NCBI RefSeq assembly: GCF_024713945.1
Contig: NC_134677.1
Span: 4,281,001-4,345,000, forward strand
Reading direction: 5' to 3'
DNA length: 64,000 bases
From: Dermatophagoides farinae
Lineage: Eukaryota; Arthropoda; Arachnida; Sarcoptiformes; Pyroglyphidae
Below, piece by piece: positions 6,183-32,264 of this stretch. Within the stretch, counting starts at the first letter, position 1, and each line of letters begins with the position of its first letter. A model generated the notes under the pieces. It was not told the DNA's origin. It worked only from the letters and a program-made list of their open reading frames with translations, and made no database searches. The translations under genes were made by a program, and so were the position numbers.

Positions 6183-6252
<70 letters not shown>
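6183..6252. repeat. (AG)35 microsatellite
   Basis: Seventy uninterrupted bases of AG, the longest pure dinucleotide run in the window. The plus strand is all purine, a composition able to form intramolecular triplex (H-DNA). On the minus strand it reads as alternating Ser-Leu, so the 73-codon frame spanning it is an artefact. Confidence 0.98.
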
Positions 6253-30792: not shown

Positions 30793-30801
30793 GAAAAAAA
30801 C
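30793..30801. repeat. Left target-site duplication of the fold-back element
   Basis: GAAAAAAAC directly abuts the left terminus and is repeated exactly at 32256-32264. The match cannot be lengthened on either side. The A-rich core lowers its statistical weight, but the G and C ends agree and both copies sit exactly at the ends of the inverted repeats. Confidence 0.85.
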
Positions 30802-30815
30802 GGTTCTATAACAAT

Positions 30816-30887
30816 TGGTCGAACACAAAATGGTCGAACACAAAATGGTCGAACACAAAATGGTCGAAAACAAAAAGGTCGAAAACG
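30816..30887 (+). repeat. Outer short tandem repeats of the left arm (GGTCGAA x5)
   Basis: Five copies of a 15-16 bp unit of the form TGGTCGAACACAAAA. The first three have GAACAC and the inner two GAAAAC. The mirror block in the right arm has the same number and nearly the same order, so both were present before or homogenised after arm inversion. Confidence 0.92.
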
Positions 30888-30890
30888 TGG

Positions 30891-31402
30891 ATAACGTCAG
30901 TGTTGGCTTTTTCCCTTATTCAGTGTGGATAACGTCAGTGTTGACTTTATCGCTTATTCAATGTTCATAACGTCAGTGTTGACTTTATCGCTTATTCAAT
31001 GTTCATAACGTCAGTGTTGACTTTATCGCTTATTTAATGTTCATAACGTCAGTGTTGACTTTATCGTATTCAATGTTCATAACGTCAGCGTTGACTTTTT
31101 CGCTTATTCTATGTTCATAACGTCAGTGTTTACTTTTTCCCTTGTTCAGTGTTCATAACGTCAGTGTTGACTTTATCGCTTATTTAATGTTCATAACGTC
31201 AGTGCTGACTTTTTCGCTTATTTTAAGTTCATAACGTCAGTGCTGACTTTTTCGCTTATTTTAAGTTCATAACGTCAGTGTTGACTTTTTCGCTTATTCA
31301 ATGTTCATAACGTCAGTGTTTACTTTTTCCCTTATTCAGTGTTCATAACGTCAGTGTTGACTTTTTCGCTTATTCAATGTTCATAACGTCAGTGTTGACT
31401 TA
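30891..31402 (+). repeat. Left-arm tandem array of 38-bp units (13 full and 1 partial)
   Basis: The unit begins ATAACGTCAGTGTTGACTT. Twelve full units are 38 bp, and the fifth is 36 bp because CT is lost after ATCG. Variants include a TTTACTTTTTCCC type (units 7 and 12) and a GTGCTGAC...TTTTAAG type (units 9 and 10). The fourteenth unit breaks off at about 31402, where the core begins. Confidence 0.95.
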
Positions 31403-31503
31403 TTATTGTCAAATTTTCTGAGACAAAAGTGTAAAGCACCGATGAACCAATTTATAGTATTTTAGACTTTGCACCTAGATTGTTTGTCAATACAATAGTT
31501 TTC

Positions 31504-31532
31504 TCCAAACCTCACCGAAGGTGAGGTTTGGA
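31504..31532. repeat. 13-bp perfect hairpin with GAA loop in the element core
   Basis: TCCAAACCTCACC (31504-31516) and its exact reverse complement (31520-31532) are separated by GAA. The stem is GC-rich against the background. It may be a transposase-binding or subterminal fold-back structure, or a degraded inner inverted repeat. The function is unknown. Confidence 0.9.
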
Positions 31533-31554
31533 TTAATCTAATGAACCGAGACCA

Positions 31555-31579
31555 CCTAACCTAACCTAACCTAAACTAA
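31555..31579 (-). repeat. Internal telomere-like (CCTAA/TTAGG)4 run
   Basis: Four perfect CCTAA units (31555-31574) are followed by a degenerate ACTAA and a run of A. TTAGG is the ancestral arthropod telomeric unit. Here it lies inside a transposable element, far from any visible chromosome end. Confidence 0.85.
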
Positions 31580-31627
31580 AAAAAAAATAAAGTAACAGAC
31601 ATGGTGGTACGGTGAAAAGAAACGACT

Positions 31628-31633
31628 TTTATT
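31628..31633 (-). terminator. Possible polyadenylation signal AATAAA
   Basis: Perfect AATAAA hexamer on the minus strand downstream of the 61-codon ORF. In AT-rich DNA this hexamer is common, so spacing to the ORF is the only support. Confidence 0.3.
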
Positions 31634-31653
31634 TTAAGAAAACAAAAGACAAT

Positions 31654-31839
31654 TTACAAAAACAACAACACTCCATACATCTCCAAGTGACGTCTCTTCA
31701 CCATTCGTTCTTTTTCCTCGTTCCGTTCAAAGAGAACGTTACGATTGTGGTAGCAATAAACATTTTTGGCCCTGTGAAGACTTTTCATAGCATTGAATGC
31801 TCCTGGTACAATTTTAGTAGATTGTGAAAAAGTTGACAT
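31654..31839 (-). CDS. Small ORF of unknown function in the element core (61 codons)
   Basis: It runs ATG to TAA, with the start just inside the right-arm junction (ATG at 31837-31839) and an in-frame stop about 10 bases upstream. The protein is basic and not low-complexity, with segments such as VPGAFNAMKSLHRAKN and ERMVKRRHLEMYG, unlike the repeat-derived frames elsewhere. An AATAAA lies at 31633-31628, about 21 bases past the stop. I do not recognise the family. It may be the 3' end of a captured host gene, a transposase remnant, or chance. The A-rich tract beyond it is in the wrong orientation for a retroposed poly(A) tail on this strand. Confidence 0.35.
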   Translation of the reverse strand: MSTFSQSTKIVPGAFNAMKSLHRAKNVYCYHNRNVLFERNEEKERMVKRRHLEMYGVLLFL

Positions 31840-32166
31840 TGAATAAAGTCAACACTGACGTTATGAACTTAAAATAAGCGAAAAAGTCAGCACTGACGTT
31901 ATGAACATTAAATAAGCGATAAAGTCAACACTGACGTTATGAACACTGAACAAGGGAAAAAGTAAACACTGACGTTATGAACATAGAATAAGCGAAAAAG
32001 TCAACACTGACGTTATGAACATTGAATACGATAAAGTCAACACTGACGTTATGAACATTAAATAAGCGATAAAGTCAACACTGACGTTATGAACATTAAA
32101 TAAGCGATAAAGTCAACACTGACGTTATGAACATTAAATAAGCGAAAAAGCCAACACTGACGTTAT
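31832..32166 (-). repeat. Right-arm tandem array of 38-bp units (8 full and 1 partial), inverted
   Basis: Read on the minus strand from the outer end, the units repeat the left-arm series. A GGC-type outer unit, two TTTAATG units, the 36-bp unit with the same CT deletion, a TCTATG unit, the TTTACTTTTTCCCTTG unit, a TTTAATG unit and a GTGCTGAC...TTTTAAG unit follow in the same order as left units 1, 4 to 9. The innermost unit is rearranged. Confidence 0.95.
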
Positions 32167-32169
32167 CCA

Positions 32170-32240
32170 CGTTTTCGACCTTTTTGTTTTCGACCATTTT
32201 GTGTTCGACCATTTTGTGTTCGACCTTTTTGTGTTCGACC
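32170..32240 (-). repeat. Outer short tandem repeats of the right arm (GGTCGAA x5)
   Basis: Five TTCGACC copies, mirror image of the left outer block. Confidence 0.9.
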
Positions 32241-32255
32241 AATTGTTATAGCACC

Positions 32256-32264
32256 GAAAAAAAC
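32256..32264. repeat. Right target-site duplication of the fold-back element
   Basis: Exact second copy of GAAAAAAAC, abutting the GCACC end of the right arm. Confidence 0.85.

Follow-up and report, generated by a model that had tools for sequence, protein, structure and literature searches.

The analysed window is a 64-kb stretch of the genome of the American house dust mite, Dermatophagoides farinae (C1:4281001-4345000; 62,435,336 bases in 22 contigs). One fragment of this genome matches a protein named as D. farinae at 100% identity, over 37% of its length. Coordinates of the element follow the numbering of the window, and other loci in the genome are written as contig:position (C1, C2, and so on). 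A complete foldback element of 1454 bp was found at window positions 30802-32255, with GAAAAAAAC on either flank (Table 1). An earlier note on this stretch had drawn the element from 30793 to 32264; both of these flanks are real, and the exact 9-bp duplication that it described is present in identical form on the two sides, so that the drawn extent included the target duplications and the element proper lies between them. The ends were fixed by the GG...CC termini common to 15 two-ended copies in the genome, 14 of which adjoin a target duplication, either 9 or 8 bp long. Neither an Rfam nor a tRNA scan of the 64-kb window gave a match. It was also noted that a perfect (AG)35 microsatellite occupies window positions 6183-6252.

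Table 1. Features of the foldback element, in window coordinates.
Feature	Position	Strand	Details
Left target site duplication	30793..30801	+	GAAAAAAAC, 9 bp, exact match to right flank
Whole foldback element	30802..32255	+	1454 bp, subfamily A ends
Left terminus	30802..30818	+	GGTTCTATAACAATTGG
Left 15-bp tandem units	30816..30883	+	TGGTCGAACACAAAA, 4.5 copies (Tandem Repeats Finder)
Left 38-bp tandem array	30891..31401	+	13.5 units, one unit of 36 bp
Core part common to subfamily B cores	31411..31591	+	89-92% identity
Extra core segment	31592..31760	+	not in the aligned B copies
Second core part common to subfamily B	31755..31804	+	92-94%
Right 38-bp tandem array	31845..32166	-	8.5 units, inverted, variants in left array's order
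Right 15-bp tandem units	32174..32241	-	4.5 copies
Right terminus	32239..32255	-	reverse complement GGTGCTATAACAATTGG
Right target site duplication	32256..32264	+	GAAAAAAAC, 9 bp

From the outside inward, the element is layered into a 17-base end, 15-bp units, 38-bp units, and a core of approximately 440 bp. The fold-back structure proposed from the first inspection was confirmed, with the inverted termini GGTTCTATAACAATTGG and GGTGCTATAACAATTGG differing at one base in 17, and the arms of 38-bp units in opposite orientation were likewise recovered, as arrays of 13.5 and 8.5 units. Complementarity between the inverted arms reaches 98% over 326 nt and 96% over 228 nt. Having long inverted arms composed of tandem subrepeats, the element belongs to the foldback structural class.

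A search of the genome for other copies, which the earlier note had named as its own check, revealed a family with 9-bp flanks. The first 98 bases of the element (target duplication included) matched at least 29 places, the repeat counts from this genome search being lower bounds. A degenerate 21-base end pattern, scanned across the whole genome with up to 2 mismatches allowed, hit 47 places (34 exact and 13 with 2 mismatches), compared with 3 for the reversed control pattern. The 34 exact ends comprise 15 two-ended copies and four single ends, and the family is found on seven contigs, with two-ended copies on C1, C2, C3, C4, C5, and C7 and a one-ended copy on C6. All four single ends (C1:2205384, C2:673980, C4:1949844, and C6:1417567) belong to copies resembling subfamily B that are shortened or rearranged within the stretches examined. 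A B-like arm without a matching end was also noted at C10:2214676 (86%).

Among the 13 inexact places, two were fetched and are not ends, and three more carry the same 21 bases as those two. These five places, which share GGTTGTGTAACAATATGTCTG and lie near the ends of C1, C3, C4, and C7, were considered as a third subfamily and rejected on the basis that the two C4 places fall inside a repeat, within its long open frame, and that this repeat does not match the elements. The repeat lies at C4:11500-16000 and C4:22000-25500, with the same 21 bases recurring at C3:11529, C7:18885, and C1:9145514. It is subtelomeric, and its two copies, approximately 10 kb apart, are 98% identical. It holds a frame of 626 aa with what we take to be CCHC-like knuckles, as well as a frame that we take to be endonuclease-like, and by the look of it this repeat near the contig ends is a non-LTR retrotransposon.

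The target duplications among the 15 two-ended copies were exact at 9 bp in 11 cases and exact at 8 bp in three, with none in the remaining copy and no duplication of 7 bp in any of the 15. When the left flank of each copy was paired with the right flanks of the other copies, 0 of 210 mismatched pairs agreed at 9 bp, 0 at 8 bp, and 1 at 7 bp. Because the elements' own flanks match at 9 bp in 11 of 15 copies and such mismatched pairs never do, a chance match of flanks is excluded. For one of the 8-bp cases (C4:1318431), the ninth base is the same as the last base of the element. The other two have runs of one base within the duplication, and the loss of a base from a 9-bp duplication is therefore possible in these two. 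In 14 of the 15 copies, the difference between the two ends of one element is constant, the exception being C5:2853285, where both ends are alike and there is no duplication. This copy (C5:2853285-2854955) is a B copy of 1671 bp whose core contains a 50-bp tandem repeat.

Tandem arrays in opposite orientation could also arise as a local inverted satellite array with no mobile element involved, and the arms by themselves would suit that reading. The fixed ends, the target duplications at 14 of 15 copies, and the dispersal over seven contigs make it exceedingly improbable. A search for an empty site within this genome assembly, using the joined flanks, returned matches only to this locus and to two 33-base pieces on C7.

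We found that the copies fall into two subfamilies. Subfamily A, with ends GGTTCTATAACAATTGGTCGAA / GGTGCTATAAC..., consists of four copies, namely the studied element and those at C2:3183570 (2481 bp), C4:828690 (2386 bp), and C5:2408359 (2266 bp), whereas the 11 remaining two-ended copies, of 886 to 1671 bp, form subfamily B with ends GGTTCTGTCACAA... / GGTTGTGTCACAA.... The two are distinguished by how their ends start (GGTTCT/GGTGCT in A, GGTTCTG/GGTTGTG in B) and by their arms, which are built of 38-bp tandem units on both sides in A and of 15-bp units in B. The three long A copies share 97.7-99.7% identity, the value for the C4 and C5 copies as wholes being 99.7%. Pairwise identity within B is 97.5-100% across nine of the 11 copies, the two longest being left out. 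The ends of the studied element are 96-97% identical to those of other A copies over 70-92 bases; against B ends, the identity is just 76-80%. When a fixed stretch of 89 bases is compared, the studied element agrees with the two ends of the C4 copy at 74/89 and 82/89, a lower match that is put down to differing numbers of 15-bp units.

Three B copies (C2:1407398, C3:4113851, and C4:3130229) are one identical string over 928 bp on three contigs, from which we infer that the family moved recently. The earlier note had called the insertion recent; the 98% identity of the arms, the intact target duplication, and the three identical B copies agree with this at the level of the family.

The core had been described as unique, which did not hold, since approximately 180 bp of it resembles the cores of subfamily B. 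An extra stretch of approximately 169 bp, missing from the two B copies aligned, is flanked by AATAAA at 31586-31591 and 31755-31760 and has relatives at C1:7901851 (73%) and C6:960771 (70%). Two smaller features of the core are also present in the two aligned B cores: a sequence that can form a hairpin with arms of 12 bases (31505-31531), and a run of CCTAA (31555-31574), which resembles the arthropod telomere repeat. The three long A copies carry a different core, which includes a disrupted fragment of Ty1/copia reverse transcriptase (RVT_2; one open piece at E 3.8e-15, the next at 4.9e-6 and under the cut-off) with relatives of 89-90% identity at C6:5009742 and C8:1433458. This fragment is no part of the studied element. 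The three long cores also hold two 51-bp units from another, much more abundant repeat with inverted halves, and they keep a 47-bp edge that is 85-87% like B. The cores may be exchangeable cargo. The abundant repeat itself consists of tandem units of approximately 51 bp with plus and minus halves up to approximately 5 kb apart; at least 338 matches to the whole query were counted, and it was located at C4:2737900-2738500 and at least 24 other loci (e.g., C5:121777-126079, C7:934743-937216, and C3:6567388-6569243).

This pattern of cores raises the question of whether the studied element is a recombinant, in which A ends and arms were placed around a B core by gene conversion or template switching. 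Its core is 89-92% identical to B cores even though its ends reach only the 76-80% given above, and the other three A copies differ from it in core. However, an ancestral core kept both here and in B, together with faster-evolving arms, would fit the same values, and the B-like edge retained in the three other A cores also speaks against an exchange. We regard recombination as a real contender at somewhat less than even odds.

We then compared the arm arrays of the two subfamilies by scanning the 15 copies on both strands for 33 bases of the 38-bp unit by edit distance, allowing up to 10 edits. Unit arrays were found on both sides in all four A copies, with 5-14 units on the left and 7-9 on the right. 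Among the B copies, nine of 11 possess 2-3 units, all on the left and along the inner margin of the inverted arm, and the other two possess none; the edit-distance scan found no right-side unit in any of the 11. No unit was found in 15 shuffled B sequences that served as a control. Two histories would explain this: a one-sided array may have been extended into both arms in A, or the right array may have been lost in B.

The left and right 38-bp arrays of the studied element agree at 279 of 284 aligned bases, compared with 213/280 and 258/319 between its arrays and those of two other A copies. The right array also repeats the order of variant units in the left array, the 36-bp unit included, at a cost of 5 edits; shuffling the right units gave a mean of 14.7 edits, and 57 of 20000 shuffles were as good as 5. 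The alikeness of the arms fits intra-element repair in which one arm was copied from the other, with the repair step itself conjectural. At C4:828690, the copy's own two arrays agree at 233/251, below the 99.7% identity of the C4 copy to the C5 copy. Arm copying is seen in the studied element only and is not general in the data. If B is ancestral, the subfamilies may record the growth of foldback arms, an internal segment having been copied into the opposite arm in reverse, after which both were amplified and homogenised, a proposal that we consider doubtful and clearly the less probable side of the question.

Having characterized the structure of the family, we assessed whether any of its members could encode the enzyme that moves it. 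The earlier note had suggested looking for a copy with a transposase, and the stop-to-stop frames of the 15 two-ended copies reach 103 aa at most; no transposase with the family ends was found among these copies and the four single ends. The interpretation as a non-autonomous foldback insertion, put forward in the same note, holds because 14 further two-ended copies with independent flanks exist and no open frame exceeds 103 aa in any of the 15. Taken as a whole, the best explanation is that the element is a non-autonomous foldback DNA transposon (probability of about 0.9).

Profile searches were extended to the whole genome. The sole match to PF10551 (MULE), at C3:1397048, scored 26.5 bits, under the cut-off of 27.6; scored alone, the piece reached 27.7 bits, and a piece preceding it has a FLYWCH finger (E 4.8e-9). 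A partial copy of the MULE-type piece, 98% identical, lies at C3:1393146, and a weak match was recorded at C8:495491 (E 0.07). The C3 match was not accepted as the moving enzyme, as the family ends are absent from the 7.3 kb around it. The stretch in question (C3:1391464-1398727) contains a FLYWCH and MULE remnant that is partly duplicated at 98%. After the remnant comes a frame whose match is a D. farinae protein model carrying a LEM-3-like GIY-YIG domain (PF22945), and beside the remnant lies a frame that we take to be a BEL/Pao-like reverse transcriptase. The Merlin-type DDE profile (PF12762) gave 0 genome matches, with the positive control detected in 1 of 14; the P-type profile (PF21787) gave 0 in the genome and also 0 in 14 controls; and a ZSWIM-type domain search, run with no positive control, gave 0 matches. 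An open frame of 250 aa (C2:672399-673151) beside the single B end at C2:673980, open at the edge of the stretch, was rejected as the moving enzyme, given that approximately 490 bp separate it from the homologous part and no Pfam family matches it. Inspected by eye, this frame resembles a membrane protein. The enzyme would then be in another strain, lost, or missed by the profiles used.

Drosophila FB makes 9-bp target duplications and Galileo makes 7-bp ones, the family differing from the latter in that its duplications are mostly 9 bp. Close likenesses were noted with Tm1, a Mutator/Foldback family of root-knot nematodes, which as described in PMC3169594 has 9-bp duplications, composite inverted arms with 13-15 bp tandem units of varying number, asymmetric outermost bases, and short MITE-like copies beside others. 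In contrast, the ends and the unit TGGTCGAACACAAAA are, by eye, unlike the Tm1 motifs A1/A2 and the 14-bp Motif C, and the arms of the dust mite family add a further layer, made of 36-38 bp units. Tm1 also has members with a MULE-like transposase, which was not found in the dust mite family, and the same account gives it a purine-rich stretch and a histone hairpin (PMC3169594). Rehavkus, treated as an outgroup or a member of the MULEs in PMC6446971, is similar in its 9-bp duplication, its TIRs of 26-400 bp, a minisatellite adjoining the TIR, and hosts that include arthropods; it is defined by a transposase with a PHD finger. The duplications of the dust mite family fall within the range of 8-11 bp listed there for the MULE superfamily (PMC6446971).

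Other foldback elements share parts of this architecture. Drosophila FB/Foldback, likened here by description only, has inverted arms of short tandem units and variable arm length (PMC3169594, PMC4079207); the dust mite family differs in that it has no coding copy. Tetris of D. virilis is a non-autonomous foldback element with tandem units in its TIRs, duplications of 8-10 bp, and a partner reported as not found; however, its units are approximately 220 bp and also form satellite arrays (PMC4079207), whereas all of the at least 29 matches to the 38-bp units lie inside family members. Galileo, a foldback element of the P superfamily, likewise has long, internally repetitive inverted arms (PMC3573991).

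Given the 9-bp duplication and the composite arms, as compared with Tm1 and the MULE table, the moving enzyme would most likely be of the MULE or Rehavkus type. Alternatively, the same kind of element could be moved by an enzyme from some other superfamily that makes duplications of 8-9 bp (Merlin, hAT, P-like, or one yet to be described), with the foldback shape having arisen independently. Galileo demonstrates that this shape can arise in the P superfamily (PMC3573991, PMC4079207), three copies have exact 8-bp duplications, and no MULE with the family ends was found. Nevertheless, 9 bp is the commonest duplication (11 of 15) and no Merlin-type domain was detected in the genome, the control being found in 1 of 14. 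We hold another superfamily to be unlikely. The moving enzyme could also be of a lineage that has yet to be described.

A working model for the movement of the element can be proposed from these features. A transposase made elsewhere would bind the ends of the element, probably at the repeated 15-bp units that contain GTCGAA, excise it, and paste it into a staggered 9-bp cut, which would leave the direct repeats. The ends would stay fixed because the enzyme must recognise them. The inner 38-bp arrays may change length through unequal exchange or slippage. As for the arms of the studied element, repair would have made them alike by copying one from the other. One copy (C2:3183570-3186050) bears what looks like a scar of repair or excision, in which GGTTCTATAA, matching the ten bases that open the left end of the element, directly adjoins the right duplication TTTTTTTGT on its outer side. 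In this single case, it is possible that repair slipped from the right duplication to the left one and copied ten bases before the strands were rejoined.

The family is an ordinary kind of thing that is well demonstrated here, a non-autonomous foldback transposon family. We found no report of it in this mite in the open-licence literature, and the main text of a 2026 survey of arthropod MULEs (PMC13359780) contains no word beginning with 'mite' or 'Acari'. The lack of literature reports fits a family that is possibly undescribed. In the published repeat table for this genome, DNA transposons are credited with just 0.09% (PMC11074847, Table 2), and a recently active foldback family may therefore have been missed there or classed with the simple repeats.

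According to a published report, the piRNA pathway is missing from house dust mites, which counter their transposons by a siRNA-like pathway that depends on Dicer (PMC5805368). An element whose transcript is predicted to fold into a long hairpin would be a natural test case for this siRNA-like pathway. With A and B side by side in a small genome, the origin of foldback arms can be put to the test, and if B is ancestral, arm growth would be stepwise, repair-driven, and readable from the present copies. The value of the family lies in this graded series of arm structures within one small genome, in a host reported to be without piRNAs.
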